NCBI GenBank assembly: GCA_916610825.1
Contig: OU744449.1
Location: 13,681,952-13,745,951, forward strand
Length of the DNA: 64,000 bases
Direction of reading: 5' to 3'
Source: Haliclystus octoradiatus
Taxonomy: Eukaryota; Cnidaria; Staurozoa; Stauromedusae; Haliclystidae
The position numbers and the translations under genes were made by a program. Below the pieces are notes generated by a model, which did no database searches, was not told the DNA's origin, and was given only the letters and a program-made list of their open reading frames with translations. Numbering within the stretch: position 1 is the first letter of the stretch; each line of letters opens with the position of its first letter. Positions 1 through 36,900 of this stretch are shown piece by piece.

Positions 1-3000
1 CAGATGGTGCTTCAGTCTTTTCTACTTGTGGTGCATCAGTTGGTGCAGCAGTTGAGGCGTGTACGGATGGTGCTTCAGTCTTTTCTATTTGCGGTGCATC
101 AGTTGGTGCAGCAGTTGAGGTATCTACAGATGGTGCTTCAGTCTCTTCTACTTGTGGTGCATCAGTTGGAGCAGCAGTTGAGGCGCGTACGGATGGTGCT
201 TCAGTCTCTTCTACTTGTGGTGCATCAGTTGGTGCAGCAGTTGAGGCATCTACAGATGGTGCTTCGGTCTCTTCTACTTGTGGTGCATCAGTTGGAGCAG
301 CAGTAGAGGCGTGTACGGATGGTGCTTCAGTCTCTTCTACTTGCGGTGCATCAGTTATTGCAGCAGTTGAGGCATCTACAGATGGTGCTTCAGTCTCTTC
401 TATCTGTGGTGCATCAGTTGGTGCAGAAGTTGAGGCATCTACAGATGGTGCTTCAGTCTCTTCTACTTGCGGTGCATCAGTTGGTGCAGCAGTTGAAGCA
501 TCTACAGATGGTGCTTCAGTCTCTTCTACTTGTGGTGCATCAGTTGGAGCAGCAGTAGAGGCGTGTACGGATGGTGCTTCAGTTTCTTCTACTTGTGCTG
601 CATCAGTTGGTGCAGCAGTTGAGGCATCTACAGATGGTGCTTCAGTCTCTTCTACTTGTGGTGCATCAGTTGGAGCAGCAGTTGAGGCATCTACAGATGG
701 TGCTTCAGTCTCTTCTACTTGTGGTGCTTCAGTCTCTTCTACTTGCGGTGCATCAGTTGGTGCAGCAGTTGAGGCATCTACAGATGGTGCTTCAGTCTCT
801 TCTACTTGTGGTGCTTCAGTCTCTTCTACTTGCGGTGCATCAGTTGGTGCAGCAGTTGAGGCATCTACAGATGGTGCTTCAGTCTTTTCTACTTGTGGTG
901 CATCAGTTGGTGCAGCAGTTGAGGCGTGTACGGATGGTGCTTCAGTCTTTTCTATTTGCGGTGCATCAGTTGGTGCAGCAGTTGAGGCATCTACAGATGG
1001 TGCTTCGGTCTCTTCTACTTGTGGTGCATCAGTTGGAGCAGCAGTAGAGGCGTGTACGGATGGTGCTTCAGTCTCTTCTACTTGCGGTGCATCAGTTATT
1101 GCAGCAGTTGAGGCATCTACAGATGGTGCTTCAGTCTCTTCTATCTGTGGTGCATCAGTTGGTGCAGAAGTTGAGGCATCTTCAGATGGTGCTTCAGTCT
1201 CTTCTACTTGCGGTGCATCAGTTGGTGCAGCAGTTGAAGCATCTACAGATGGTGCTTCAGTCTCTTCTACTTGTGGTGCATCAGTTGGAGCAGCAGTAGA
1301 GGCGTGTACGGATGGTGCTTCAGTTTCTTCTACTTGTGCTGCATCAGTTGGTGCAGCAGTTGAGGCATCTACAGATGGTGCTTCAGTCTCTTCTACTTGT
1401 GGTGCATCAGTTGGAGCAGCAGTTGAGGCATCTACAGATGGTGCTTCAGTCTCTTCTACTTGTGGTGCTTCAGTCTCTTCTACTTGCGGTGCATCAGTTG
1501 GTGCAGCAGTTGAGGCATCTACAGATGGTGCTTCAGTCTCTTCTACTTGTGGTGCTTCAGTCTCTTCTACTTGCGGTGCATCAGTTGGTGCAGCAGTTGA
1601 GGCATCTACAGATGGTGCTTCAGTCTTTTCTACTTGTGGTGCATCAGTTGGTGCAGCAGTTGAGGCGTGTACGGATGGTGCTTCAGTCTTTTCTATTTGC
1701 GGTGCATCAGTTGGTGCAGCAGTTGAGGTATCTACAGATGGTGCTTCAGTCTCTTCTACTTGTGGTGCATCAGTTGGAGCAGCAGTTGAGGCGCGTACGG
1801 ATGGTGCTTCAGTCTCTTCTACTTGTGGTGCATCAGTTGGTGCAGCAGTTGAGGCATCTACAGATGGTGCTTCGGTCTCTTCTACTTGTGGTGCATCAGT
1901 TGGAGCAGCAGTAGAGGCGTGTACGGATGGTGCTTCAGTCTCTTCTACTTGCGGTGCATCAGTTATTGCAGCAGTTGAGGCATCTACAGATGGTGCTTCA
2001 GTCTCTTCTATCTGTGGTGCATCAGTTGGTGCAGAAGTTGAGGCATCTACAGATGGTGCTTCAGTCTCTTCTACTTGCGGTGCATCAGTTGGTGCAGCAG
2101 TTGAAGCATCTACAGATGGTGCTTCAGTCTCTTCTACTTGTGGTGCATCAGTTGGAGCAGCAGTAGAGGCGTGTACGGATGGTGCTTCAGTTTCTTCTAC
2201 TTGTGCTGCATCAGTTGGTGCAGCAGTTGAGGCATCTACAGATGGTGCTTCAGTCTCTTCTACTTGTGGTGCATCAGTTGGAGCAGCAGTTGAGGCATCT
2301 ACAGATGGTGCTTCAGTCTCTTCTACTTGTGGTGCTTCAGTCTCTTCTACTTGCGGTGCATCAGTTGGTGCAGCAGTTGAGGCATCTACAGATGGTGCTT
2401 CAGTCTCTTCTACTTGTGGTGCTTCAGTCTCTTCTACTTGCGGTGCATCAGTTGGTGCAGCAGTTGAGGCATCTACAGATGGTGCTTCAGTCTTTTCTAC
2501 TTGTGGTGCATCAGTTGGTGCAGCAGTTGAGGCGTGTACGGATGGTGCTTCAGTCTTTTCTATTTGCGGTGCATCAGTTGGTGCAGCAGTTGAGGTATCT
2601 ACAGATGGTGCTTCAGTCTCTTCTACTTGTGGTGCATCAGTTGGAGCAGCAGTTGAGGCGCGTACGGACGGTGCATCAGTTTCTTCTACTTGTGGTGCAT
2701 CAGTTGGTGCAGCAGTCGAGAAATCTACAGATGGTTCTTCAGTCTCTTCTACTTGCGGTGCATCAGTTGGTGCAGCAGTTGTGGCATCTATGCATGATGG
2801 TGAAGTAGAGCCTTCTACACACGATGCATCAATTGGTGCAGCAGTTGAGGCATCTACAGATGGTGCTTCAGTCTCTTCTACTTGTGGTGCATCAGTTGGT
2901 GCAGCAGTTGAGGCTGTTACGGATGGTGCTTCAGTCTCTTCTATTTGCGGTGCATCAGTTGGTGCAGCAGTTGAGGCATCTACAGATGGTGCTTCAGTCT

Positions 3001-6000
3001 CTTCTACTTGCGGTGCATCAGTTGGTGCAGCAGTTGAGACATCTACAGATGGTGCTTCAGTATCTTCTACTTGTGGTGCATCAGTTGGTGCAGCAGTTGA
3101 GGCATCTACAGATGGTGCTTCAGTCTCTTCTACTTGTGGTGCATCAGTTGGAGCAGCAGTAGAGGCGTGTACGGATGGTGCTTCAGTTTCTTCTACTTGT
3201 GGTGCATCAGTTGATGCAGCAGTTGAGGCATCTACAGATGGTGCTTCAGTCTCTTCTACTTGCGGTGCACCAGTTGGTGCAGCAGTTGAGGCATCTACAG
3301 ATGGTGCTTCAGTCTCTTCTACTTGCGGTGCAGCAGTTGAGGCATCTACAGATGGTGCTTCAGTCTCTTCTACTTGTGGTGCATCAGTTGGTGCAGCAGT
3401 TGAGGCTTGTACGGATGGTGCTTCAGTCTCTTCTATTTGCGGTGCATCAGTTGGTGCAGCAGTTGAGGCATCTACAGATGGTGCTTCAGTCTCTTCTACT
3501 TGCGGTGCATCAGTTGGTGCAGCAGTTGAGACATCTACAGATGGTGCTTCAGTCTCTTCTACTTGTGGTGCATCAGTTGGTGCAGCAGTTGAGGAATCTA
3601 CAGATGGTGCTTCAGTCTCTTCTACTTGTGGTGCATCAGTTGGAGCAGCACTAGAGGCGTGTATGGATGGTGCTTCAGTCTCTTCTACTTGCGGTGCATC
3701 AGATGGTGCAGCAGTTGAGGCATCTACAGATGGTGCTTCAGTCTCTTCTATCTGTGGTGCATCAGTTGGTGCAGCAGTTGAGGCATCTACAGACGGTGCT
3801 TCAGTCTCTTCTACTTGCGGTGCATCAGTTGGTGCAGCAGTTGAGGTATCTACAGATGGTGCTTCAGTCTCTTCTACTTGTGGTGCATCAGTTGGAGCAG
3901 CAGTAGAGGCGTGTACGGATGGTGCTTCAGTTTCTTCTACTTGTGGTGCATCAGTTGGTGCATCAGTTGGTGCAGCAGTTGAGGCATCTACTGATGGTGC
4001 TTCAGTCTCTTCTACTTGCTGTGCATCAGTTGGTGCAGCAGTTGTGGCATCTATGCATGATGGTGAAGTAGAACCTTCTACACACGATGCATCAATTGGT
4101 GCAGCAGTTGAGGCATCTACAGCTGGTGCTTCAGTCTCTTCTACTTGTGGTGCATCAGTTGGTGCAGCAGTTGAGGCGTGTTCGGATGGTGCTTCAGTCT
4201 CTTCTATTTGCGGTGCATCAGTTGGTGCAGCAGTTGAGGCATCTACAGATGGTGCTTCAGTCTCTTCTACTTGTGGTGCATCAGTTGGTGCAGTAGTTGA
4301 AGCATCTACAGATGGTGCTTCAGTCTTTTCTACTTGTGGTGCATCAGTTGGTGCAGCAGTTGAGGCGTGTACGGATGGTGCTTCAGTCTTTTCTATTTGC
4401 GGTGGATCAGTTGGTGCAGCAGTTGAGGTATCTACAGATGGTGCTTCAGTCTCTTCTACTTGTGGTGCATCAGTTGGAGCAGCAGTTGAGGCGTGTACGG
4501 ATGGTGCTTCAGTCTCTTCTACTTGTGGTGCATCAGTTGGTGCAGCAGTTGAGGCATCTACAGATGGTGCTTCGGTCTCTTCTACTTGTGGTGCATCAGT
4601 TGGAGCAGCAGTAGAGGCGGGTACGGATGGTGCTTCAGTCTCTTCTACTTGCGGTGCATCAGTTGGTGCAGCAGTTGAAGCATCTACAGATGGTGCTTCA
4701 GTCTCTTCTACTTGTGGTGCATCATTTGGAGCAGCAGTAGAGGCGTGTACGGATGGTGCTTCAGTTTCTCCTACTTGTGCTGCATCAGTTGGTGCAGCAG
4801 TTGAGGCATCTACAGATGGTGCTTCAGTCTCTTCTACTTGTGGTGCATCAGTTGGAGCAGCAGTAGAGGCGTGTACGGATGGTGCTTCAGTCTCTTCTAC
4901 TTGCGGTGCATCAGTTATTGCAGCAGTTGAGGCATCTACAGATGGTGCTTCAGTCTCTTCTATCTGTGGTGCATCAGTTGGTGCAGCAGTTGAGGCATCT
5001 ACTGATGGTGATTCAGTCTCTTCTACTTGCGGTGCATCAGTTGGTGCAGCAGTTGTGGCATCTATGCATGATGGAGAAGTAGAACCTTCTACACACGATG
5101 CATCAATTGGTGCAGCAGTTGAGGCATCTACAGCTGGTGCTTCAGTCTCTTCTACTTGTGGTGCATCAGTTGGTGCTGCAGTTGAGGCGTGTTCGGATGG
5201 TGCTTCAGTCTCTTCTATTTGCGGTGCATCAGTTGGTGCAGCAGTTGAGGCATCTACAGATGGTGCTTCAGTCTCTTCTACTTGTGGTGCATCAGTTGGT
5301 GCAGCAGTTGAGGCATCTACAGATGGTGCTTCAGTCTCTTCTACTTGTGGTGCTTCAGTCTCTTCTACTTGCGGTGCATCAGTTGGTGCAGCAGTTGAGG
5401 CATCTACAGATGGTGCTTCAGTCTCTTCTACTTTTGGTGCTTCAGTCTCTTCTACTTTTGGTGCTTCAGTCACTTCTACTTGCGGTGCATCAGTTGGTGC
5501 AGCAGTTGAGGCATCTACAGATGGTGCTTCAGTCTCTTCTACTTGTGGTGCATCAGTTGGTGCAGCAGTTGAGGCATCTACAGATGGTGCTTCGGTCTCT
5601 TCTACTTGTGGTGCATCAGTTGGAGCAGCAGTAGAGGCGTGTACGGATGGTGCTTCAGTCTCTTCTACTTGCGGTGCATCAGTTGGTGCAGCAGTTGAGG
5701 CATCTACAGATGGTGCTTCAGTCTCTTCTACTTGTGGTGCATCAGTTGGTGCAGCAGTTGAAGCATCTACAGATGGTGCTTCAGTCTTTTCTACTTGTGG
5801 TGCATCAGTTGGTGCAGCAGTTGTGGCATCTATGCATGATGGTGAAGTAGAGCCTTCTACACACGATGCATCAATTGGTGCAGCAGTTGAGGCATCTACA
5901 GATGGTGCTTCAGTCTCTCCTACTTGTGGTGCATCAGTTGGTGCAGCAGTTGAGGCTTGTACGGATGGTGCTTCAGTCTCTTCTATTTGCGGTGCATCAG

Positions 6001-9000
6001 TTGGTGCAGCAGTTGAGGCATCTACAGATGGTGCTTCAGTCTCTTCTACTTGCGGTGCATCAGTTGGTGCAGCAGTTGAGACATCTACCGATGGTGCTTC
6101 AGTATCTTCTACTTGTGGTGCATCAGTTGGTGCAGCAGTTGAGGCATCTACAGATGGTTCTTCAGTCTCTTCTACTTGCGGTACATCAGTTGGTGCAGCA
6201 GTTGTGGCATCTATGCATGATGGTGAAGTAGAACCTTCTACACACGATGCATCAGTTGGTGCAGCAGTTGAGACATCTACAGATGGTGCTTCAGTATCTT
6301 CTACTTGTGGTGCATCAGTTGGTGCAGCAGTTGAGGCATCTACAGATGGTGCTTCAGTCTCTTCTACTTGTGGTGCATCAGTTGGAGCAGCAGTAGAGGC
6401 GTGTACGGATGGTGCTTCAGTCTCTTCTACTTGCGGTGCATCAGTTGGTGCAGCAGTTGAGGCATCTACTGATGGTGCTTCAGTCTCTTCTACTTGTGGT
6501 GCATCAGTTGGAGCAGCAGTAGAGGCGTGTACGGATGGTGCTTCAGTCTCTTCTACTTGCGGTGCATCAGTTGGTACAGCAGTTGAGGCATCTACTGATG
6601 GTGCTTCATTCTCTTCTACTTGTGGTGCATCAGTTGGTGTAGCAGTTGAAGCATCTACAGATGGTTCTTCAGTCTCTTCTACTTGTGGTGCTTCAGTCTC
6701 TTCTACTTGTGGTGCATCAGTTGGAGCAGCAGTAGAGGCGTGTACAGATGGTGCTTCAGTTTCTTCTACTTGTGGTGCATCAGTTGATGCAGCAGTTGAG
6801 GCATCTACAGATGGTGCTTCAGTCTCTTCTACTTGCGGTGCATCAGTTGGTGCAGCAGTTGAGGCATCTACAGTTGGTGCTTCAGTCTCTTCTACTTGCG
6901 GTGCAGCAGTTGAGGCATCTACAGATGGTGCTTCAGTCTCTTCTACTTGTGGTGCATCAGTTGGTGCAGCAGTTGAGGCTTGTACGGATGGTGCTTCAGT
7001 CTCTTCTATTTGCGGTGCATCAGTTGGAGCAGCAGTAGAGGCGTGTACGGATGGTGCTTCAGTCTCTTCTACTTGCGGTGCATCAGTTGGTACAGCAGTT
7101 GAGGCATCTACTGATGGTGCTTCATTCTCTTCTACTTGTGGTGCATCAGTTGGTGTAGCAGTTGAAGCATCTACAGATGGTTCTTCAGTCTCTTCTACTT
7201 GTGGTGCTTCAGTCTCTTCTACTTGTGGTGCATCAGTTGGAGCAGCAGTAGAGGCGTGTACAGATGGTGCTTCAGTTTCTTCTACTTGTGGTGCATCAGT
7301 TGATGCAGCAGTTGAGGCATCTACAGATGGTGCTTCAGTCTCTTCTACTTGCGGTGCATCAGTTGGTGCAGCAGTTGAGGCATCTACAGATGGTGCTTCA
7401 GTCTCTTCTACTTGCGGTGCAGCAGTTGAGGCATCTACAGATGGTGCTTCAGTCTCTTCTACTTGTGGTGCATCAGTTGGTGCAGCAGTTGAGGCTTGTA
7501 CGGATGGTGCTTCAGTCTCTTCTATTTGCGGTGTATCAGTGGGTGCAGCAGTTGAGGCGTGTACGGATGGTGCTTCAGTTTCTCCTACTTGTGGTGCATC
7601 AGTTGGTGCAGCAGTTGAGGCATCTACTGATGGTGCTTCAGTCTCTTCTACTTGCGGTGCATCAGTTGGTGCAGCAGTTGAAGCATCTACAGATGGTGCT
7701 TCAGTCTCTTCTACTTGTGGTGCATCAGTTGGAGCAGCAGTAGAGGCGTGTACGGATGGTGCTTCAGTTTCTTCTACTTGTGGTGCATCAGTTGGTGCAG
7801 CAGTTGAGGCATCTACTGATGGTGCTTCAGTCTCTTCTACTTGCGGTGCATCAGTTGGTGCAGCAGTTGTGGCATCTATGCATGATGGTGAAGTAGAACC
7901 TTCTACACACGATGCATCAATTGGTGCAGCAGTTGAAGCATCTACAGATGGTGCTTCAGTCTCTTCTACTTGTGGTGCTTCAGTCTCTTTTACTTGCGGT
8001 GCATCAGTTGGTGCAGCAGTTGAGGCATCTACAGATGGTGCTTCAGTCTTTTCTACTTGTGGTGCATCAGATGGTGCAGCAGTTGAGGCGTGTACGGATG
8101 GTGCATCAGTCTTTTCTATTTGCGGTGCATCAGTTGGTGCAGCAGTTGAGGTATCTACAGATGGTGCTTCAGTCTCATCTACTTGTGGTGCATCAGTTGG
8201 AGCAGCAGTTGAGGCGTGTATGAATGGTGCATCAGTTTCTTCTACTTGTGGTGCATCAGTTGGTGCAGCAGTCGAGGCATCTACAGATGGTTCTTCAGTC
8301 TCTTCTACTTGCGGTGCATCAGTTGGTGCAGCAGTTGTGGCATCTATGCATGATGGTGAAGTAGAACCTTCTACACACGATGCATCAGTTGGTGCAGCAG
8401 TTGAGACATCTACAGATGGTGCTTCAGTATCTTCTACTTGTGGTGCATCAGTTGGTGCAGCAGTTGAGGCATCTACAGATGGTGCTTCAGTCTCTTCTAC
8501 TTGTGGTGCATCAGTTGGAGCAGTAGTAGAGGCGTGTACGGATGGTGCTTCAGTTTCTTCTACTTGTGGTGCATCAGTTGATGCAGCAGTTGAGGCATCT
8601 ACAGATGGTGCTTCAGTCTCTTCTACTTGCGGTGCATCAGTTGGTGCAGCAGTTGAGGCATCTACAGATGGTGCTTCAGTCTCTTCTACTTGAGGTGCAG
8701 CAGTTGAGGCATCTACAGATGGTGCTTCAGTCTCTTCTACTTGTGGTGCATCAGTTGGTGCAGCAGTTGAGGCTTGTACGGATGGTGCTTCAGTCTCTTC
8801 TATTTGCGGTGTATCAGTGGGTGCAGCAGTTGAGGCGTGTACGGATGGTGCTTCAGTTTCTCCTACTTGTGGTGCATCAGTTGGTGCAGCAGTTGAGGCA
8901 TCTACTGATGGTGCTTCAGTCTCTTCTACTTGCGGTGCATCAGTTGGTGCAGCAGTTGAAGCATCTACAGATGGTGCTTCAGTCTCTTCTACTTGTGGTG

Positions 9001-12000
9001 CATCAGTTGGAGCAGCAGTAGAGGCGTGTACGGATGGTGCTTCAGTTTCTTCTACTTGTGGTGCATCAGTTGGTGCAGCAGTCGAGGCATCTACAGATGG
9101 TTCTTCAGTCTCTTCTACTTGTGGTGCATCAGTTGGTGCAGCAGTTGAGGCGTGTTCGGATGGTGCTTCAGTCTCTTCTATTTGCGGTGCATCAGTTGGA
9201 GCAGCAGTAGAGGCGTGTATGGATGGTGCTTCAGTCTCTTCTACTTGCGGTGCATCAGTTGGTACAGCAGTTGAGGCATCTACTGATGGTGCTTCAGTCT
9301 CTTCTACTTGTGGTGCATCAGTTGGTGCAGCAGTTGAGGCGTGTTCGGATGGTGCTTCAGTCTCTTCTATTTGCGGTGCATCAGTTGGTGCAGCAGTTGA
9401 GGCATCTACAGATGGTGCTTCAGTCTCTTCTACTTGCGGTGCATCAGTTGGTGCAGCAGTTGAGACATCTACAGATGGTGCTTCAGTCTCTTCTACTTGT
9501 GGTGCATCAGTTGGTGCAGCAGTTGAGGCATCTACAGATGGTGCTTCAGTCTCTTCTACTTGTGGTGCATCAGTTGGAGCAGCAGTAGAGGTGTGTACGG
9601 ATGGTGCTTCAGTCTCTTCTACTTGCGGTGCATCAGTTGGTGCAGCAGTTGAGGCATCTACTGATGGTGCTTCAGTCTCTTCTACTTGTGGTGCATCAGT
9701 TGGAGCAGCAGTAGAGGTGTGTACGGATGGTGCTTCAGTCTCTTCTACTTGCGGTGCATCAGTTGGTACAGCAGTTGAGGCATCTACTGATGGTGCTTCA
9801 GTCTCTTCTACTTGTGGTGCATCAGTTGGTGTAGCAGTTGAAGCATCTACAGATGGTTCTTCAGTCTCTTCTACTTGTGGTGCTTCAGTCTTTTCTATTT
9901 GCGGTGCATCAGTTGGTGCAGCAGTTGAGACATCTACAGATGGTGCTTCAGTCTCTTCTACTTGTGGTGCATCAGTTGGTGCAGCAGTTGAGGCATCTAC
10001 AGATGGTGCTTCAGTCTCTTCTACTTGTGGTGCATCAGTTGGAGCAGCAGTAGAGGCGTGTACGGATGGTGCTTCAGTCTCTTCTACTTGCGGTGCATCA
10101 GTTGGTGCAGCAGTTGAGGCATCTACTGATGGTGCTTCAGTCTCTTCTACTTGTGGTGCATCAGTTGGTGCAGCAGTAGAAGAATCTACAGATGGTGCTT
10201 CAGTCTCTTCTACTTGTGGTGCTTCAGTCTCTTCTATTTGCGGTGCATCAGTTGGTGTAGCAGTTGAGGCGTCTACGGATGGTGCTTCAGTCTCTTCTAT
10301 TTGCGGTGCATCAGTTGGTGCAGCAGTTGAGACATCTACAGATGGTGCTTCAGTCTCTTCTACTTGCGGTGCAGCAGTTGAGGCATCTACAGATGGTGCT
10401 TCAGTCTCTTCTACTTGTGGTGCATCAGTTGGTGCAGCAGTTGAGGCTTGTACGGATGGTGCTTCAGTCTCTTCTATTTGCGGTGCATCAGTTGGTGCAG
10501 CAGTTGAGACATCTACAGATGGTGCTTCAGTCTCTTCTACTTGCGGTGCATCAGTTGGTGCAGCAGTTGAGACATCTACAGATGGTGCTTCAGTCTCTTC
10601 TACTTGTGGTGCATCAGTTGGTGCAGCAGTTGAGGCATCTACAGATGGTGCTTCAGTCTCTTCTACTTGTGGTGCATCAGTTGGAGCAGCAGTAGAGGCG
10701 TGTACGGATGGTGCTTCAGTCTCTTCTACTTGCGGTGCATCAGTTGGTGCAGCAGTTGAGGCATCTACTGATGGTGCTTCAGTCTCTTCTACTTGTTGTG
10801 CATCAGTTGGTGCAGCAGTTGAAGCATCTACAGATGGTGCTTCAATCTCTTCTACTTGTGGTGCTTCAGTCTCTTCTATTTGCGGTGCATCAGTTGGTGT
10901 AGCAGTTGAGGCGTCTACGGATGGTGCTTCAGTCTCTTCTACTTGTGGTGCATCAGTTGGTGCAGCAGTTGAGGCATCTACAGATGGTGCTTCAGTCTCT
11001 TCTACTTGTGGTGCATCAGTTGGTGCAGCAGTTGTAGCATCTAAAGATGGTGCTTCAGTCTCTTCTACTTGTGGTGCTTCAGTCTCTTCTATTTGCGGTG
11101 CATCAGTTGGTGCAGCAGTTGAGACATCTACAGATGGTGCTTCAGTCTCTTCTACTTGCGGTGCATCAGTTGGTGCAGCAGTTGAGGCATCTACTGATGG
11201 TGCTTCAGTCTCTTCTACTTGTGGTGCATCAGTTGGTGCAGCAGTTGAAGAATCTACAGATGGTGCTTCAGTCTCTTCTACTTGTGGTGCTTCAGTCTCT
11301 TCTATTTGCGGTGCATCAGTTGGTGTAGCAGTTGAGGCGTCTACGGATGGTGCTTCAGTCTCTTCTATTTGCGGTACATCAGTTGGTGCAGCAGTTGAGA
11401 CATCTACAGATGGTGCTTCAGTCTCTTCTACTTGCGGTGCAGCAGTTGAGGCATCTACAGATGGTGCTTCAGTCTCTTCTACTTGTGGTGCATCAGTTGG
11501 TGCAGCAGTTGTGGCTTGTACGGATGGTGCTTCAGTCTCTTCTATTTGCGGTGCATCAGTTGGTGCAGCAGTTGAGGCATCTACAGATGGTGCTTCAGTC
11601 TCTTCTACTTGTGGTGCATCAGTTGGTGCAGCAGTTGAAGAATCTACAGATGGTGCTTCAGTCTCTTCTACTTGTGGTGCTTCAGTCTCTTCTATTTGCG
11701 GTGCATCAGTTGGTGTAGCAGTTGAGGCGTCTACGGATGGTGCTTCAGTCTCTTCTATTTGCGGTACATCAGTTGGTGCAGCAGTTGAGACATCTACAGA
11801 TGGTGCTTCAGTCTCTTCTACTTGCGGTGCAGCAGTTGAGGCATCTACAGATGGTGCTTCACTCTCTTCTACTTGTGGTGCATCAGTTGGTGCAGCAGTT
11901 GTGGCTTGTACGGATGGTGCTTCAGTCTCTTCTATTTGCGGTGCATCAGTTGGTGCAGCAGTTGAGGCATCTACAGATGGTGCTTCAGTCTCTTCTACTT

Positions 12001-18626: not shown

Positions 18627-18924
18627 GGTGCTGACGTCGTTTCTTCTACCAGTGGAGCTTCTGTGTCTACTGGTGGTGGTGGCGGTGCAATAGTTGGCGC
18701 TTCCACTTTAGGTGCAGACGATGTTTCTCCTACCATTGGTGCTTCTGTGTCTACTGGTGGTGGTGGTGGTGCAATGGTTGGTGCCTCACTCTCTTCTATT
18801 TGAGGAGCAGAACTTGTTCCATTGATGCTCGGAATATCAGTAATGGTTGGCATAGGTGACAAATCCACTGCTATTGTGGGATCTAGTTTGGTTTCATTCT
18901 TTCGAGGCTTTACACTTGATGGTT
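1..18924 (-). CDS. Exon 16: second repeat array, at least 18.9 kb, running off the left edge
   Basis: Residues 4995 onward. The acceptor (pyrimidine tract, then GAAAACAG) precedes [17 protein letters not shown], with possible N-glycosylation sites NET and NGT. Two copies of [16 protein letters not shown] follow, then the same 21-residue unit as exon 14. The reading frame at position 2 has the same register as at 18922, so all length changes over 18.9 kb are multiples of three. The variant units I checked (for example plus-strand TATAAA, TAATTG and TTAGTG changes) contain no in-frame stop. About 294 units fit. No other frame gives the same register at both ends. The 3' end of the gene lies beyond position 1. 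Confidence 0.87.
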
Positions 18925-24900: not shown

Positions 24901-27900
24901 CCTTCTACACACGATGCATCAGTTGGTACAGCAGCGGAGGGATCTAAAGATGGTGCAACAGTTTCTTCTACCTGTGGTGCATCAGTTTGTGCAGCAGTTG
25001 AAACATGTACAGATGGTGCTTCAGTGTCTTCTACTTGAGGTGCATCAGTTGGTGCAGCAGTTGAGGGATCTGCAGATGGTGCTTCAGTGTCTTCTACTTG
25101 AGGTGCATCAGTTGGTGCAGCAGTTGAGGGATCTGCAGATGGTGCATCAGTCGCTTCTACTTGTGGTGCATCAGTTGGTGCAGCAGTTGAGGCATCTACA
25201 GATGGTGCTTCAGTGTCTTCTACTTGAGGTGCATCAGTTGGTGCAGCAGTAGAGGGATCTGCAGATGGTGCATCAGTCGCTTCTACTTGTGGTGCATCAG
25301 TTGGTGCAGCAGTTGAGGCATCTACAGATGGTGCTTCAGTCTCTTCTACTTGTGGTGCATCAGTTGGTGCAGCAGTTGAGGCATCTACAGATGGTGCTTG
25401 AGTCTCTTGTACTTGTGGTGCATCAGTTGGTGCAGCAGTTGAGGCTTGTACGGATGGTGCTCCAGTCTCTTCTATTTGCGGTGCATCAGTTGGTGCAGCA
25501 GTTGAGGCATGTACAGATGGTGTTTCAGTGTCTTCTACTTGTGGTGCATCAGTTGGTGCAGCAGTTGAGGCTTGTACGGATGGTGCTTCAGTCTCTTCTA
25601 TTTGCGGTGCAGCAGTTGAGGCTTGTACGGATGGTGCTTCAGTCTCTTCTATTTGCGGTGCATCAGTTGGTGCAGCAGTTGAGGCATCTACAGATGGTGC
25701 TTCAGTCTCTTCTACTTGTGGTGCATCAGTTGGTGCAGCAGTTGAGGCATCTACAGATGGTGCTTCAGTCACTTCTACTTGTGGTGCATCAGTTGGTGCA
25801 GCAGTTGAAGCATGTACAGATGGTGCTTCAGTCTCTTCCACTTGCGGTGCATCAGTTGGTGCAGCAGTTGAGGCATCTACAGATGGTGCTTCAGTCTCTT
25901 CTACTTGAGTGGCATCAGTTGGTGCAGCAGTTGAGGCGTCTATGCATGATGGTGAAGTAGAACCTTCTACACACGATGCATCAGTTGGTACAGCAGCGGA
26001 GGGATCTAAAGATGGTGCAACAGTTTCTTCTACCTGTGGTGCATCAGTTTGTGCAGCAGTTGAAACATGTACAGATGGTGCTTCAGTGTCTTCTACTTGA
26101 GGTGCATCAGTTGGTGCAGCAGTTGAGGGATCTGCAGATGGTGCTTCAGTGTCTTCTACTTGAGGTGCATCAGTTGGTGCAGCAGTTGAGGGATCTGCAG
26201 ATGGTGCATCAGTCGCTTCTACTTGTGGTGCATCAGTTGGTGCAGCAGTTGAGGCATCCACAGATGGTGCTTCAGTCTCTTCTACTTGTGGTGCATCAGT
26301 TCGGGCAGCAGTTGAAGCATCTGGTGCTTCAGTTTCTTCTACCTGTGGTGCATCAGTTTGTGCAGCAGTTGAAACATGCACAGATGGTATTTCAGTCTCT
26401 TCTACTTGCGGTGCATCAGTAAGTGCAGCAGTTGAAGCATCTACAGATGGTGCTTCAGTCTCTTCTACTTGTGGTGCATCAGTTGGTGCAGCAGTTGAAG
26501 CATCTACAGATGGTGCTTCAGTCTCTTCTACTTGTGGTGCATCAGTTGGTGCAGCAGTTGAAGCATCTACAGATGGTGCTTCAGTCTCTTGTACTTGTGG
26601 TGCATCAGTTGGTGCAGCAGTTGAGGCATCTACAGATGGTGCTTCAGTCTCTTCTACTTGAGGTCCATCAGTTGGTGCAGCAGTTGAAGCATCTACAGAT
26701 GGTGCCTCAGTCTCTTCTACTTGCGGTGCATCAGTAAGTGCAGCAGTTGAGGCATCCACAGATGGCGCTTCAGTCTCTTCTACTTGTGGTGCATCAGTTG
26801 GTGCAGCAGTTGAGGCATCTGCAGATGGTGCTTCAGTGTCTTCTACTTGAGGTGCATCAGTTGGTGCAGCAGTTGAGGGATCTGCAAATGGTGCATCAGT
26901 CGCTTCTACTTGTGGTGCATCAGTTGGTGCAGCAGTTGAGGCATCCACAGATGGTGCTTCAGTCTCTTCCACTTGTGATGCATCAGTTGGTGCAGCAGTT
27001 GAGGCATCTACAGATGGTGCTTCAGTGTCTTCTACTTGAGGTGCATCAGTTGGTGCAGCAGTTGAGGCATCTGCAGATGGTGCTTCAGTGTCTTCTACTT
27101 GAGGTGCATCAGTTGATGCACCAGTTGAGGGATCTGCAGATGGTGCATCAGTCGCTTCTACTTGTGGTGCATCAGTTGGTGCAGCAGTTGAGGCATCCAC
27201 AGATGGTGCTTCAGTCTCTTCTACTTGAGGTGCATCAGTTGGTGCAGCAGTTGAGGGATCTGCAGATGGTGCTTCAGTGTCTTCTACTTGAGGTGCATCA
27301 GTTGGTGCAGCAGTTGAGGGATCTGCAGATGGTGCATCAGTCGCTTCTACTTGTGGTGCATCAGTTGGTGCAGCAGTTGAGGCATCTACAGATGGTGCTT
27401 CAGTCTCTTCTACTTGTGGTGCATCAGTTGGTGCAGCAGTTGAGGCATCTACAGATGGTGCTTCAGTGTCTTCTACTTGAGGTGCATCAGTTGGTGCAGC
27501 AGTAGAGGGATCTGCAGATGGTGCATCAGTCGCTTCTACTTGTGGTGCATCAGTTGGTGCAGCAGTTGAGGCATCTACAGATGGTGCTTCAGTCTCTTCT
27601 ACTTGTGGTGCATCAGTTGGTGCAGCAGTTGAGGCATCTACAGATGGTGCTTGAGTCTCTTGTACTTGTGGTGCATCAGTTGGTGCAGCAGTTGAGGCTT
27701 GTACGGATGGTGCTCCAGTCTCTTCTATTTGCGGTGCATCAGTTGGTGCAGCAGTTGAGGCATGTACAGATGGTGTTTCAGTGTCTTCTACTTGTGGTGC
27801 ATCAGTTGGTGCAGCAGTTGAGGCTTGTACGGATGGTGCTTCAGTCTCTTCTATTTGCGGTGCAGCAGTTGAGGCTTGTACGGATGGTGCTTCAGTCTCT

Positions 27901-30900
27901 TCTATTTGCGGTGCATCAGTTGGTGCAGCAGTTGAGGCATCTACAGATGGTGCTTCAGTCTCTTCTACTTCTGGTGCATCAGTTGGTGCAGCAGTTGAGG
28001 CATCTACAGATGGTGCTTCAGTCTCTTCTACTTGTGGTGCATCAGTTGGTGCAGCAGTTGAGGCTTGTACGGATGGTGCTTCAGTCTCTTCTATTTGCGG
28101 TGCATCAGTTGGTGCAGCAGTTGAGGCATGTACAGATGGTGCTTCAGTGTCTTCTACTTGAGGTGCATCAGTTGGTGCAGCAGTTGAGGCATCTACAGAT
28201 GGTGCCTCAGTTTCTTCTACTTGCGGTGCATCAGTTGGTGCAGCAGTTGAGGCATCTACAGATGGTGCTTCAGTCTCTTCTACTTGTGGTGCATCAGTTG
28301 GTGCAGCAGTTGAGGCTTGTACGGATGGTGCTTCAGTCTCTTCTATTTGCGGTGCATCAGTTGGTGCAGCAGTTGAGGCATGTACAGATGGTGCTTCAGT
28401 GTCTTCTACTTGAGGTGCATCAGTTGGTGCAGCAGTTGAGGTATCTACAGATGGTGCTCCAGTCTCTTCTATTTGCGGTGCATCTGTTGGTGCAGCAGTT
28501 GAGGCGTGTACAGATGGTGCTTCAGTCTCTTCCACTTGCGGTGCATCAGTTGGTGCAGCAGTTGAGGCATCTACAGATGGTGCTTCAGTGTCTTCTACTT
28601 GAGGTGCATCAGTTGGTGCAGCAGTTGAGGCATCTACAGATGGTGCTTCAGTCTCTTCTACTTGTGGTGCATCAGTTGGTGCAGCAGTTGAGGCATCTAC
28701 AGATGGTGCTTCAGTCTCTTCTACTTGCGGTGCATCAGTTGGTGCAGCAGTTGAGGCATCTACAGATGGTGCCTCAGTCTCTTCTACTTGCGGTGCATCA
28801 GTTGGTGCAGCAGTTGAGGCATCTACAGATGGTGCTTCAGTCTCTTCTACTTGTGGTGCATCAGTTGGTGCAGCAGTTGAGGCATCTACAGATGGTGCTT
28901 CAGTCTCTTCTACTTGTGGTGCATCAGTTGGTGCAGCAGTTGAGGCTTGTACGGATGGTGCTTCAGTCTCTTCTATTTGCGGTGCATCAGTTGGTGCAGC
29001 AGTTGAGGCTTGTACGGATGGTGCTTCAGTCTCTTCTATTTGTGGTGCATCAGTTGGTGCAGCAGTTGAGGCATCTACAGATGGTGCTTCAGTCTCTTCT
29101 ACTTCTGGTGCATCAGTTGGTGCAGCAGTTGAGGCATCTACAGATGGTGCTTCAGTCTCTTCTACTTGTGGTGCATCAGTTGGTGCAGCAGTTGAGGCTT
29201 GTACGGATGGTGCTTCAGTCTCTTCTATTTGCGGTGCATCAGTTGGTGCAGCAGTTGAGGCATGTACAGATGGTGCTTCAGTGTCTTCTACTTGAGGTCC
29301 ATCAGTTGGTGCAGCAGTTGAGGCATCTACAGATGGTGCTTCAGTGTCTTCTACTTGAGGTGCATCAGTTGGTGCAGCAGTTGAGGCATCTACAGATGGT
29401 GCTTCAGTCTCTTCTACTTGTGGTGCATCAGTTGGTGCAGCAGTTGAGGCATCTACAGATGGTGCTTCAGTCTCTTCTACTTGCGGTGCATCAGTTGGTG
29501 CAGCAGTTGAGGCATCTACAGATGGTGCCTCAGTCTCTTCTACTTGCGGTGCATCAGTTGGTGCAGCAGTTGAGGCATCTACAGATGGTGCTTCAGTCTC
29601 TTCTACTTGTGGTGCATCAGTTGGTGCAGCAGTTGAGGCATCTACAGATGGTGCTTCAGTCTCTTCTACTTGTGGTGCATCAGTTGGTGCAGCAGTTGAG
29701 GCTTGTACGGATGGTGCTTCAGTCTCTTCTATTTGCGGTGCATCAGTTGGTGCAGCAGTTGAGGCTTGTACGGATGGTGCTTCAGTCTCTTCTATTTGTG
29801 GTGCATCAGTTGGTGCAGCAGTTGAGGCATCTACAGATGGTGCTTCAGTCTCTTCTACTTCTGGTGCATCAGTTGGTGCAGCAGTTGAGGCATCTACAGA
29901 TGGTGCTTCAGTCTCTTCTACTTGTGGTGCATCAGTTGGTGCAGCAGTTGAGGCTTGTACGGATGGTGCTTCAGTCTCTTCTATTTGCGGTGCATCAGTT
30001 GGTGCAGCAGTTGAGGCATGTACAGATGGTGCTTCAGTGTCTTCTACTTGAGGTCCATCAGTTGGTGCAGCAGTTGAGGCATCTACAGATGGTGCCTCAG
30101 TCTCTTCTACTTGCGGTGCATCAGTTGGTGCAGCAGTTGAGGCATCTACAGATGGTGCTTCAGTCTCTTCTACTTGTGGTGCATCAGTTGGTGCAGCAGT
30201 TGAGGCTTGTACGGATGGTGCTTCAGTCTCTTCTATTTGCGGTGCATCAGTTGGTGCAGCAGTTGAGGCATGTACAGATGGTGCTTCAGTGTCTTCTACT
30301 TGAGGTGCATCAGTTGGTGCAGCAGTTGAGGTATCTACAAATGGTGCTCCAGTATCTTCTATTTGCGGTGCATCTGTTGGTGCAGCAGTTGAGGCGTGTA
30401 CAGATGGTGCTTCAGTCTCTTCCACTTGCGGTGCATCAGTTGGTGCAGCAGTTGAGGCATCTACAGATGGTGCTTCAGTGTCTTCTACTTGAGGTGCATC
30501 AGTTGGTGCAGCAGTTGAGGCATCTACAGATGGTGCTTCAGTCTCTTCTACTTGTGGTGCATCAGTTGGTGCAGCAGTTGAGGCATCTACAGATGGTGCT
30601 TCAGTCTCTTCTACTTGTGGTGCATCAGTTGGTGCAGCAGTTGAGGCATCTACAGATGGTGCTTCAGTCTCTTCTACTTGCGGTGCATCAGTTGGTGCAG
30701 CAGTTGAGGCATCTACAGATGGTGCCTCAGTCTCTTCTACTTGTGGTGCATCAGTTGGTGCAGCAGTTGAGGCTTGTACGGATGGTGCTTCAGTCTCTTC
30801 TATTTGCGGTGAATCAGTTGGTGCAGCAGTTGAGGCATGTACAGATGGTGCTTCAGTGTCTTCTACTTGAGGTGCATCAGTTGGTGCAGCAGTTGAGGTA

Positions 30901-33900
30901 TCTACAGATGGTGCTCCAGTCTCTTCTATTTGCGGTGCATCTGTTGGTGCAGCAGTTGAGGCGTGTACAGATGGTGCTTCAGTCTCTTCCACTTGCGGTG
31001 CATCAGTTGGTGCAGCAGTTGAGGCTTGTACGGATGGTGCTTCAGTCTCTTCTATTTGCGGTGCATCAGTTGGTGCAGCAGTTGAGGCATCTGCTGATGG
31101 TGCTTCAGTGTCTTCTACTTGAGGTGCATCAGTTGGTGCAGCAGTTGAGGGATCTGCAGATGGTGCATCAGTGGCTTCTACTTGTGGTGCATCAGTTGGT
31201 GCAGCAGTTGAGGCATCCACAGATGGTGCTTCAGTCTCTTCTACTTGAGGTGCATCAGTTGGTGCAGCAGTTGAGGCTTGTACGGATGGTGCTTCAGTCT
31301 CTTCTATTTGCGGTGCATCAGTTGGTGCAGCAGTTGAGGCATGTACAGATGGTGTTTCAGTGTCTTCTACTTGTGGTGCATCAGTTGGTGCAGCAGTTGA
31401 GGCTTGTACGGATGGTGCTTCAGTCTCTTCTATTTGCGGTGCATCAGTTGGTGCAGCAGTTGAGGCTTGTACGGATGGTGCTTCAGTCTCTTCTATTTGC
31501 GGTGCATCAGTTGGTGCAGCAGTTGAGGCATCTACAGATGGTGCTTCAGTCTCTTCTACTTCTGGTGCATCAGTTGGTGCAGCAGTTGAGGCATCTACAG
31601 ATGGTGCTTCAGTCTCTTCTACTTGTGGTGCATCAGTTGGTGCAGCAGTTGAGGCTTGTACGGATGGTGCTTCAGTCTCTTCTATTTGCGGTGCATCAGT
31701 TGGTGCAGCAGTTGAGGCATGTACAGATGGTGCTTCAGTGTCTTCTACTTGAGGTGCATCAGTTGGTGCAGCAGTTGAGGCATCTACAGATGGTGCCTCA
31801 GTTTCTTCTACTTGCGGTGCATCAGTTGGTGCAGCAGTTGAGGCATCTACAGATGGTGCTTCAGTCTCTTCTACTTGTGGTGCATCAGTTGGTGCAGCAG
31901 TTGAGGCTTGTACGGATGGTGCTTCAGTCTCTTCTATTTGCGGTGCATCAGTTGGTGCAGCAGTTGAGGCATGTACAGATGGTGCTTCAGTGTCTTCTAC
32001 TTGAGGTGCATCAGTTGGTGCAGCAGTTGAGGTATCTACAGATGGTGCTCCAGTCTCTTCTATTTGCGGTGCATCTGTTGGTGCAGCAGTTGAGGCGTGT
32101 ACAGATGGTGCTTCAGTCTCTTCCACTTGCGGTGCATCAGTTGGTGCAGCAGTTGAGGCATCTACAGATGGTGCTTCAGTGTCTTCTACTTGAGGTGCAT
32201 CAGTTGGTGCAGCAGTTGAGGCATCTACAGATGGTGCTTCAGTCTCTTCTACTTGTGGTGCATCAGTTGGTGCAGCAGTTGAGGCATCTACAGATGGTGC
32301 TTCAGTCTCTTCTACTTGCGGTGCATCAGTTGGTGCAGCAGTTGAGGCATCTACAGATGGTGCCTCAGTCTCTTCTACTTGCGGTGCATCAGTTGGTGCA
32401 GCAGTTGAGGCATCTACAGATGGTGCTTCAGTCTCTTCTACTTGTGGTGCATCAGTTGGTGCAGCAGTTGAGGCATCTACAGATGGTGCTTCAGTCTCTT
32501 CTACTTGTGGTGCATCAGTTGGTGCAGCAGTTGAGGCTTGTACGGATGGTGCTTCAGTCTCTTCTATTTGCGGTGCATCAGTTGGTGCAGCAGTTGAGGC
32601 TTGTACGGATGGTGCTTCAGTCTCTTCTATTTGTGGTGCATCAGTTGGTGCAGCAGTTGAGGCATCTACAGATGGTGCTTCAGTCTCTTCTACTTCTGGT
32701 GCATCAGTTGGTGCAGCAGTTGAGGCATCTACAGATGGTGCTTCAGTCTCTTCTACTTGTGGTGCATCAGTTGGTGCAGCAGTTGAGGCTTGTACGGATG
32801 GTGCTTCAGTCTCTTCTATTTGCGGTGCATCAGTTGGTGCAGCAGTTGAGGCATGTACAGATGGTGCTTCAGTGTCTTCTACTTGAGGTCCATCAGTTGG
32901 TGCAGCAGTTGAGGCATCTACAGATGGTGCCTCAGTCTCTTCTACTTGCGGTGCATCAGTTGGTGCAGCAGTTGAGGCATCTACAGATGGTGCTTCAGTC
33001 TCTTCTACTTGTGGTGCATCAGTTGGTGCAGCAGTTGAGGCTTGTACGGATGGTGCTTCAGTCTCTTCTATTTGCGGTGCATCAGTTGGTGCAGCAGTTG
33101 AGGCATGTACAGATGGTGCTTCAGTGTCTTCTACTTGAGGTGCATCAGTTGGTGCAGCAGTTGAGGTATCTACAGATGGTGCTCCAGTCTCTTCTATTTG
33201 CGGTGCATCTGTTGGTGCAGCAGTTGAGGCGTGTACAGATGGTGCTTCAGTCTCTTCCACTTGCGGTGCATCAGTTGGTGCAGCAGTTGAGGCATCTACA
33301 GATGGTGCTTCAGTGTCTTCTACTTGAGGTGCATCAGTTGGTGCAGCAGTTGAGGCATCTACAGATGGTGCTTCAGTCTCTTCTACTTGTGGTGCATCAG
33401 TTGGTGCAGCAGTTGAGGCATCTACAGATGGTGCTTCAGTCTCTTCTACTTGTGGTGCATCAGTTGGTGCAGCAGTTGAGGCATCTACAGATGGTGCTTC
33501 AGTCTCTTCTACTTGCGGTGCATCAGTTGGTGCAGCAGTTGAGGCATCTACAGATGGTGCCTCAGTCTCTTCTACTTGTGGTGCATCAGTTGGTGCAGCA
33601 GTTGAGGGATCTGCAGATGGTGCATCAGTCGCTTCTACTTGTGGTGCATCAGTTGGTGCAGCAGTTGAGGCATCTACAGATGGTGCTTCAGTCTCTTCTA
33701 CTTGTGGTGCATCAGTTGGTGCAGCAGTTGAGGCATCTACAGATGGTGCTTCAGTGTCTTCTACTTGAGGTGCATCAGTTGGTGCAGCAGTTGAGGGATC
33801 TGCAGATGGTGCATCAGTCGCTTCTACTTGTGGTGCATCAGTTGGTGCAGCAGTTGAGGCATCTACAGATGGTGCTTCAGTCTCTTCTACTTGTGGTGCA

Positions 33901-36900
33901 TCAGTTGGTGCAGCAGTTGAGGCATCTACAGATGGTGCTTCAGTCTCTTCTACTTGTGGTGCATCAGTTGGTGCAGCAGTTGAGGCTTGTACGGATGGTG
34001 CTTCAGTCTCTTCTATTTGCGGTGCATCAGTTGGTGCAGCAGTTGAGGCATGTACAGATGGTGCTTCAGTGTCTTCTACTTGTGGTGCATCAGTTGGTGC
34101 AGCAGTTGAGGCTTGTACGGATGGTGCTTCAGTCTCTTCTATTTGCGGTGCATCAGTTGGTGCAGCAGTTGAGGCTTGTACGGATGGTGCTTCAGTCTCT
34201 TCTATTTGCGGTGCATCAGTTGGTGCAGCAGTTGAGGCATGTACAGATGGTGCTTCAGTCTCTTCTACTTGAGGTGCATCAGTTGGTGCAGCAGTTGAGG
34301 CATCTACAGATGGTGCTTCAGTCTCTTCTACTTGTGGTGCATCAGTTGGTGCAGCAGTTGAGGCATCTACAGATGGTGCTTCAGTCTCTTCTACTTGTGG
34401 TGCATCAGTTGGTGCAGCAGTTGAGGCTTGTACGGATGGTGCTTCAGTCTCTTCTATTTGCGGTGCATCAGTTGGTGCAGCAGTTGAGGCATGTACAGAT
34501 GGTGCTTCAGTGTCTTCTACTTGAGGTGCATCAGTTGGTGCAGCAGTTGAGGCATCTACAGATGGTGCCTCAGTTTCTTCTACTTGCGGTGCATCAGTTG
34601 GTGCAGCAGTTGAGGCATCTACAGATGGTGCTTCAGTCTCTTCTACTTGTGGTGCATCAGTTGGTGCAGCAGTTGAGGCTTGTACGGATGGTGCTTCAGT
34701 CTCTTCTATTTGCGGTGCATCAGTTGGTGCAGCAGTTGAGGCATGTACAGATGGTGCTTCAGTGTCTTCTACTTGAGGTGCATCAGTTGGTGCAGCAGTT
34801 GAGGTATCTACAGATGGTGCTCCAGTCTCTTCTATTTGCGGTGCATCTGTTGGTGCAGCAGTTGAGGCGTGTACAGATGGTGCTTCAGTCTCTTCCACTT
34901 GCGGTGCATCAGTTGGTGCAGCAGTTGAGGGATCTGCAGATGGTGCATCAGTCTCTTCTACTTGTGGTGCATCAGTTGGTGCAGCAGTTGAGGTATCTAC
35001 AGATGGTGCTCCAGTCTCTTCTATTTGCGGTGCATCTGTTGGTGCAGCAGTTGAGGCGTGTACAGATGGTGCTTCAGTCTCTTCCACTTGCGGTGCATCA
35101 GTTGGTGCAGCAGTTGAGGGATCTGCAGATGGTGCATCAGTCTCTTCTACTTGTGGTGCATCAGTTGGTGCAGCAGTTGAGGCATCTACAGATGGTGCAT
35201 CAGTCTCTTCTACTTGTGGTGCATCAGTTGGTGCAGCAGTTAAGGCGTCTACAGATAGTCCTTCAGTCTTTTCTACTTGAGGTGCATCAGTTGGTGCAGC
35301 AGTTGAGGCTTCTACAGATGGTGCTTCAGTCTCTTCTATTTGTGGTGCATCAGTTGGAAGGTCTTCATATGGTGCTGTAGTAGGCAGTTGTCCAAGACAT
35401 GTCTGTTTGTCTTCACTCAATGCATAACCATTTCTGCAGGAGCAGGTAAATGATCCAACATTATTGTTACATATATGTTGGCAACCACCATTTATTTCGG
35501 TACATTCATCAATATCTGGAAGGGAGAAACAATGTTCGTATTAGTTGAATAAAGTAACTGATTTGCAGAAGACTGAATTGAAGACCAGACTTGCATCGTG
35601 AACTAAATATTTTGTTATAATTGAGTTACAAACCTTTGCAGGATGATAAATCACTTTGAAGTGCAAATCCTTTGTTGCAAGAGCATTTATAGTCATATAT
35701 TGAGTTGATACAATTCTGTTGACATCCACCATTGCTTATTGCACAAACATCGACATCTGTGATGATATAATTTCAAGGTATGTATATATTAATCATGCTG
35801 TATAGGGATTAAATGGATAGATGACATGATATGATAGCTTGAACAGAAGTAAATAAAAAAGCATATATAGATTAACAACGGCAAAACTTTCCAGTGTTCA
35901 GATTTTGGGTTCATAGAGCAGGCTTTTATTTTATACTTTTAGAAATGGAAAGTTGATTTACTGACAAAGCAATAATGTAAAATTTATTTTAAAAAATACC
36001 AGTAAGGAATTGACAATGAGGATAAGTACTCTTGCTTATTAGCCATGATAGCTTTACATATCTATTGATGTTTACAAAGTTAAACAGCAGCTATCGATTC
36101 TGCCTCTCTCAATAGATTTCACAACCTTTTATATTTAACTGATGTGAACACTTTGTCACTTTTACCAATGTTTAGTCCTGTGATCACGTTTACTGCTGAT
36201 AGTTATATTGGATTTTTGATAGGTTGAAAATTGGGATCCGTTATATAAATTTCTTTTACGATAAGACAAAATTAGCAAGACACTTTGCATTTTGCTTGGG
36301 AAAGAGGCAAACATGTGATAATTGAAATTGAGTTCAAAATGGCTGTCATTTTGGTTTCAAATCCATATGTTGCCTGAGCTATGTCTCTCTATGTCTAAGT
36401 CATAATGAATATTGGAATGTTTGTGCAAGGTTTAATAAGGTTACTGGACACCATCATGATCATATGGTTTCAATTTGTAGTTGCAATCTTTCCCAACAAA
36501 TGTTAGTTATTGAAAAAAAGGTCATGTGAAATTGAGCAATTCGATTGGTTGAATAGGGTCGAACTTCAGTCCATTCTAAATTGTATTGACCTCTCCATGT
36601 TTTTTAACCATTCTAGCGAAAATGCAATGGATAATTGCGTTTTTGATGCATTAAAATACCTTAAAATTCATATTACGATTTCTGTTCCAATATTGACCTG
36701 TTACTCATTGAATAAAAAAGTTATTGATCTCATGCTCAATGAATATCAGCATAATAACCTTGGCAGGCTTCGGTCATCATCATCCGATGTTCACCTCGCT
36801 TTTCGTGAATTAACTGTTACATATCGCATGGGCATTGCTAATCATATCTGATCAACTTTGAATCCCCTTAAGTATCTAAAACATGAAATGAGTACCATCT

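Follow-up and report, generated by a model that had tools for sequence, protein, structure and literature searches.

What does a gene encode when two of its exons consist almost wholly of one short repeat that stays open for tens of kilobases, and is the repeat translated at all? A 64,000-nucleotide stretch of chromosome 4 of the staurozoan Haliclystus octoradiatus (C5:13681952-13745951, where C5 is that chromosome; hereafter the window) raises this question. A preliminary description of the window, made from its letters, had placed on it a single protein of the secreted pathway with giant repeat exons, four VWA domains, a ConA-like domain and two EGF domains, and had called the architecture not nameable. 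We find that the gene lies on the minus strand at C5:13665483-13738223, so that its 3' end falls outside the window, and that the C-terminus encoded there consists of a ZP module followed by a cleavage site and a transmembrane-like tail. The architecture hence belongs to a named class; it seemed unnameable because the window edge hid the gene's 3' end and the decisive ZP domain. By its ZP-N domain, ZP-C domain and cleavage site, the predicted product is a ZP-module protein.

Two giant repeat exons

The claim of two giant exons built from one 63-bp unit stands. Exon 14, which runs from the acceptor CTTCCAG/ATATTG at 35515 to the donor CCAG/GTATGT, is 11,571 bp long without a stop. Exon 16 had been put at no less than 18.9 kb, which is correct as a lower bound and an understatement of the true size: with neighbouring DNA included it extends past window base 1 by a further 13,979 bp, ends at C5:13667973 and measures 32,903 bp, also without a stop. 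A stop in the exon 16 frame had been named beforehand as a refuter; it was searched for and none was found. The unit encodes 21 residues, and wraparound alignment counts about 180 copies of 50 kinds in exon 14 and 507 copies of 142 kinds in exon 16, about 687 in total, with exactly 21 residues in 173 and 426 of them, respectively. TRF scores are 18,277 for the exon 14 array and 11,633 for the part of the exon 16 array inside the window (1-12328). Across the genome that we searched (261.9 Mb in 33 contigs), the unit was found at this locus only (149 matches among the best 150 of 526 candidates scored).

The sense frame has no stop in either array. The other two minus-strand frames have 264 and 343 stops in exon 14 and 901 and 1014 in exon 16. 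A closer comparison comes from two antisense frames that are also open in the consensus unit and have 6 and 7 one-step changes to a stop, versus 6 in the sense frame. In exon 14 these frames contain 41 and 10 stops (51 together, in 7 and 6 distinct 21-base contexts), and in exon 16 they contain 7 and 124 (131 together, in 4 and 26 distinct contexts). The absence of sense stops, set against the many in comparable antisense frames, favours selection for an open frame. Two long open frames on the plus strand, at 12405-18623 (2,073 codons) and 27506-35377 (2,624 codons), were considered as genes and rejected, as they mirror the stop-poor antisense of the repeat.

The codon differences between copies point both ways. 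Single-base differences from the consensus are nonsynonymous to synonymous at 236:208 in exon 14 and 586:681 in exon 16, below the expected 2.3-2.6:1, which speaks for a coding array; these counts omit 73 and 379 codons, respectively, in which two or three bases differ. When distinct kinds of change are counted instead, exon 16 has no depletion (72 of 132 possible nonsynonymous versus 26 of 51 synonymous kinds) and exon 14 a weak one (40 of 132 versus 20 of 51). The copies are duplicates of one another, so the counts are not independent, and neither they nor the stop counts amount to a formal test.

Exact 150-base words recur within the arrays at offsets of, for example, 1,608 and 2,835 bp. 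These recurrences suggest recent duplication of blocks, and the copy number of the array therefore likely varies between animals. They also lend something to the view that the array is satellite-like or an artefact of assembly, open by chance, and that the giant protein is not made at its modelled length: 63-bp tandem repeats expand easily, and the recurring words make a fixed copy number unlikely. We regard this view as very improbable given the stop-free sense frame beside comparable frames with many stops, the absence of any N within the gene (144 kb examined) and the quality of the assembly, which was built from 68-fold HiFi reads with a QV of 56.6 (PMC9975415).

Together the arrays form a predicted stalk of 14,776 residues (1094-15869) with 38.3% Pro+Thr+Ser, 21.7% Asp+Glu, 0.43% Lys+Arg, no Trp and a net charge of about -3,150. 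All 74 of its cysteines lie in 37 Cys-x8-Cys pairs, 4 in exon 14 and 33 in exon 16, with none unpaired. Thirty-four of the pairs share one ten-residue sequence, the start of one pair lies 43 to 1,448 residues (median 236) from that of the next, and the loop has 32 exact matches in the genome, all at this locus. Its composition suggests an extended and disordered polyanion that offers many potential sites for O-glycans.

Exons were called from open frames, splice signals and phases. The resulting model has 19 coding exons, of which exons 11 and 15 are tentative, spread over 72.7 kb. Concatenated, it is 48,765 bp long including the stop codon, the only stop being terminal, and predicts 16,254 residues and 1.629 MDa; the length of at least about 11,300 residues given in the preliminary description was thus too low. 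Phases agree from exon 1 to the stop codon, given either the tentative exon 11 or an alternative acceptor 5 nt deeper in exon 12 that joins exon 10 to exon 12 in frame. By phase both tentative exons are optional, and the model may shrink by up to about 117 residues. Based on this open and phase-consistent model, we consider it probable that the locus is one gene encoding a type-I membrane precursor of about 16,250 residues, presumably read as a single transcript. The 5-kb intron between the giant exons has room for a second start, and GT and AG both occur in the repeat consensus, so one can picture two or more transcripts, with the VWA-EGF head and first array separate from the second array and ZP module, or with repeats spliced out to leave a shorter stalk. 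This appears quite improbable, as exons 14 and 16 share phase 1 and their junction is open and in frame whether exon 15 is included or not, and as the same 63-bp unit lies on either side of the intron.

ZP module and VWA head

After the last repeat the predicted order is ZP-N (exons 16/17), ZP-C (exons 17-18), the basic site RRKR/S, the hydrophobic patch GPLIVV, a second basic site RKQR/S, a hydrophobic helix and a short tail. In the spliced piece, Pfam identifies ZP-N (PF23344, 1.6e-11, 44.9 bits against a cut-off of 24.7) and ZP-C (PF00100, 2.2e-31, 109.2 bits against 24.6), and exon 17 is the top PF00100 match in the whole genome (1.1e-14, first of 31, with 36 of 36 candidates scored). Thirteen PDB sequences match, GP2 being the best (1e-18), along with TGF-beta receptor 3 and uromodulin. 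RRKR lies at residue 16150, directly behind the final ZP-C cysteines; anthozoan ZP proteins are described as retaining Arg-X-Lys/Arg-Arg between the ZP and transmembrane segments (PMC4890752).

The same tail can be read differently. If the ZP module were a mere folded spacer and RRKR stayed uncut, the helix would hold the stalk on the cell and the protein would be a tethered, mucin-like component of the glycocalyx, akin to a giant MUC16. A stalk with 38% Pro+Thr+Ser encoded in huge single exons, as in mucins, agrees with this, as do the transmembrane-like helix and a report of anemone mucin4-like proteins that also bear a ZP domain (PMC9080433). We nevertheless consider it unlikely, as a complete ZP module followed directly by a cleavage site and an apparent hydrophobic patch is the layout of polymerising ZP proteins, and as Pfam gave no match to SEA or VWD, or to the other mucin end domains CK and NIDO/AMOP, in the scanned pieces of head and tail, which extend over about the first 150 residues of the stalk.

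At the N-terminus, the domain mix given in the preliminary description is borne out by Pfam for the four VWA and two EGF domains, and its ConA-like part is marginal. The DxSxS metal-site motif is kept in VWA domains 1, 3 and 4 and lost in VWA 2. The best PDB sequence relatives of VWA 4 are collagen VI alpha 3 (4.3e-56 over four stretches) and proximal thread matrix protein 1 (8.2e-20).

No second gene of this kind appeared in the same genome: of the 31 ZP matches, only this gene's two are close to a VWA match (about 55 kb), and among the best 150 of 203 VWA candidates the next nearest ZP-VWA pair is about 625 kb apart, with no other ZP match within 600 kb. The distance script, which used 41 of the 150 VWA places, gave 628 kb; the remaining 109 places are on contigs without ZP matches or in a cluster on C11 at 0.6 Mb. 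Separately, 21 of the 31 PF00100 matches form a ZP gene cluster in one 1-Mb stretch of chromosome 5 (C6:18.97-19.99 Mb). Dense tandem arrays of VWA exons also occur at C8:17.44-17.47 Mb (32 by hand count among the best 150 matches) and C10:0.94-1.00 Mb (44 likewise). Their periods are close to 1.5 and 1.7 kb, many of the scores are near-identical, and the arrays perhaps represent two more giant VWA proteins.

A possible assembly route and its gene

Known ZP precursors are carried to the cell surface in tethered form, are cut after the ZP module, lose a hydrophobic patch and then polymerise (PMC7737619, PMC9692296), and the N-terminal region of uromodulin is described as a 12-nm branch projecting from the ZP filament (PMC7737619). 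By analogy, the most likely fate of the Haliclystus precursor would be cleavage followed by polymerisation through its ZP module into filaments with micrometre-long anionic side arms. Once the precursor, still tethered through its C-terminus, had arrived at the cell surface, a protease of the furin-like or trypsin-like kind would cut after RRKR, and GPLIVV would depart with the propeptide. ZP modules could then polymerise as in the uromodulin mechanism, each subunit bearing one stalk and head as a side arm. The head, with its four VWA domains, ConA-like patch and two EGF domains, may, judging from these domain families, have a binding partner, for example collagen, a different matrix protein or a sugar.

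The contour of a polypeptide chain is about 0.36 nm per residue, at which the stalk, given its composition, would be about 5 micrometres long at most. As a conjecture, disulfide loops or cross-links along the arms may come from the 37 Cys-x8-Cys loops. The expected outcome would be a coat on an epithelium or in the mesoglea, in the form of a hydrated brush or gel swollen by its charge, and candidate sites are a mucus or cuticle-like surface coat, the mesoglea, a pedal adhesive and an egg coat. The coat, gel or adhesive role foreseen in the preliminary description is consistent with the predicted sequence; the tunic, also named there as a possible source, does not apply, since the species is a cnidarian. 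In its full form, as a bottlebrush ZP polymer with a filament core and, on every subunit, one VWA-tipped polyanionic arm of at most about 5 micrometres, with 37 Cys loops of identical build that can cross-link arms, the proposal is possible and rather unlikely. Were it true, one molecule would merge ZP filaments with variable number tandem repeat (VNTR) mucins, and the length of its stalk would be set by copy number.

Several details count against the assembly route as a whole. The second basic site in exon 18 makes the true cut uncertain, and the signal peptide, the GPLIVV patch and the transmembrane-like helix were all judged by eye. Cysteines are retained in 37 of 37 loop pairs, a weak test, as the loops differ from one another by few bases. 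The ConA-like match is marginal: exon 12 by itself narrowly passes the cut-offs for Laminin_G_3 (2.1e-6, 28.4 bits against 27.6) and 3keto-disac_hyd (2.3e-6, 28.2 against 26.8), and the spliced Laminin_G_3 score is 26.6 bits with exon 11 and 27.7 without it.

The exons are collected in the table. For exon 1 we scanned 54.5-63.9 kb for an ATG with an open frame and a scored donor in the correct phase; a single donor survived with three nested ATGs, which were ranked by hydrophobic core. Four phase-compatible open segments were listed for the 5-kb intron, all nested within tentative exon 15.

Coding exons of the predicted gene, 5' to 3' (window positions unless given with C5)
Exon	Content	Position	Strand	Basis
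1	start codon and signal peptide (by eye); 32 residues	56176..56272	-	donor phase matches exon 2
2	start of VWA 1, DGSGS motif	54242..54480	-	Pfam VWA 2.7e-13; spliced domain 2e-30
3	VWA 1 middle	49895..50075	-	phase and homology
4	VWA 1 end	47460..47627	-	phase and homology
5	start of VWA 2, degenerate DxSxS (DSSFK)	46639..46978	-	Pfam 5.7e-12; spliced 9.6e-18
6	VWA 2 end	44876..45126	-	phase and homology; alone without VWA match
7	start of VWA 3 (DASGS)	43755..44209	-	Pfam 2.2e-22; spliced 5.7e-28
8	VWA 3 end	42722..42875	-	phase and homology
9	whole VWA 4 (DGSQS)	40087..40680	-	Pfam 2.3e-33
10	ConA-like region begins	39682..39855	-	phase alone; by itself no Pfam match
11 (tentative)	ConA-like region	38110..38203	-	phase filler
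12	ConA / laminin-G-like core	37240..37529	-	Pfam Laminin_G_3, 3keto-disac_hyd
13	EGF 1	35634..35756	-	FXa_inhibition (EGF-type) 2.8e-10
14	EGF 2 (EGF_CA match) and first repeat array	23945..35515	-	Pfam, open frame, splice signals
15 (tentative)	84 residues, Pro/Thr/Ser-rich	21505..21756	-	longest phase-compatible open segment in 5-kb intron
16	second repeat array and start of ZP-N	1..18924 (window part); whole exon C5:13667973-13700875	-	
17 (outside window)	rest of ZP-N, ZP-C begins	C5:13667177-13667556	-	Pfam
18 (outside window)	ZP-C end, RRKR/S, GPLIVV patch	C5:13666245-13666621	-	Pfam; patch by eye
19 (outside window)	transmembrane-like helix, stop	C5:13665483-13665604	-	helix by eye

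Around the gene, all 5,000 N of the region examined form one run that begins at the window's right edge, upstream of the proposed gene start (64001-69000 in window numbering; C5:13745952-13750951). The gene has retroelement-like open frames on its flanks, which by eye resemble pieces of integrase, reverse transcriptase and gag, at about -56700 to -52900, -37000 to -34300 and 82500 to 84000 in the same numbering. A search of the window against Rfam at gathering thresholds found no family. Elsewhere in the assembly, the 18,316-bp mitochondrial contig C33 has COX1 opposed to its other genes, DNA polymerase-like frames at its ends (by eye) and five tRNA-like ARAGORN matches, including Trp and Met; we take its gene order to be that of Medusozoa.

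Comparison with known systems

Searches of public proteins returned no match listing both VWA and ZP, although an absence is weak evidence here, as such searches depend on 5-residue words in common and on a bounded length. For the head, scoring of the 7,991 candidates with the most words in common gave 5 matches, and no ZP domain is listed for any of them; the ZP part gave one, a fish protein with a ZP domain and no VWA listed (3,735 candidates). A search for the VWA-to-EGF domain order, suggested in the preliminary description for other genomes, was run on public proteins with the region from VWA 3 to EGF 2; it gave 60 matches, none with PF00100 among the listed Pfam domains (7,324 candidates), the best being cnidarian multi-VWA proteins, followed by collagen VI and fibrillins. 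Among the best-ranked literature matches we found no account of this gene.

For the head, collagen VI alpha 3 and proximal thread matrix protein 1, the closest PDB sequence relatives of VWA 4, belong to collagen microfibrils and to mussel byssus, respectively; both have VWA domains and are not known to carry a ZP domain. A cnidarian protein, Actinia tenebrosa LOC116289461 (P0004), has VWA and Laminin_G_3 listed and an EGF-like stretch by eye, and its VWA is 28% identical to VWA 4 over 197 residues. Unlike the protein described here, it has 934 residues, lists CAP and C-type lectin domains and no ZP domain, and its ConA-like region failed to align with ours.

For the overall design, the body of Drosophila Dumpy consists of EGF/DPY modules in long arrays, whereas the Haliclystus protein has two EGF domains and a low-complexity stalk with cysteines only in Cys-x8-Cys pairs. 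The two are alike in scale and kind, as Dumpy is a giant ZP-domain protein of the apical matrix of 3.2 MDa (PMC10597583) and a megadalton mass is predicted here. Uromodulin and GP2, both with solved structures, share with our protein ZP-N and ZP-C and a basic cleavage site; their hydrophobic patch and membrane anchor have putative counterparts in ours, seen by eye, and their N-terminal region, able to project from the filament, has one in the predicted stalk and head. The branches of uromodulin, with EGF and D8C domains, are reported at about 12 nm (PMC7737619), in contrast to a 14,776-residue stalk and VWA head. Within Medusozoa, the Aurelia matrix protein mesoglein also has a ZP domain and is placed in the mesoglea, with antibody evidence for the oocyte as well (PMC3504029). 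It differs in its 1,421-bp mRNA, its DSL and ZP domains and its positive charge, with no VWA or stalk in that description (PMC3504029); in our protein a repeat stalk precedes the ZP module, and DSL had no match in the pieces scanned.

Like the mucins MUC12, MUC4 and MUC16, our protein has tandem repeats rich in Pro, Thr and Ser that sit within a single exon of very large size (PMC13345508), and it may work partly like a mucin; its strongly acidic unit and ZP end set it apart. The same source qualifies the earlier view that internal exons of this size are very rare: they are rare and have precedents in the VNTR exons of human MUC12 and MUC4. In this 2026 preprint the longest allele of the MUC4 VNTR exon is 27,843 bp; the MUC12 exon, said to exceed 27,303 bp by far, is described as larger in some humans than any other protein-coding exon, and predicted MUC12 proteins reach 23,080 residues (PMC13345508). 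We therefore rejected the idea that exon 16 is the largest exon known. If made as modelled, the product would still be among the longest single-chain proteins, and exon 16 one of the larger protein-coding exons of animals, judged from the few giants considered. It would also be a natural polymer of Ala, Thr, Pro, Glu and Ser with a defined sequence, nearly without basic residues, from a staurozoan lineage in which little is known at the gene level about surface gels and attachment.

The locus further illustrates that the edge of a window can conceal the domain that explains a giant gene. The gene links the VNTR exons of mucins with the ZP module of polymerising proteins; its parts are known already from these systems, and it is their combination and size that are unusual.

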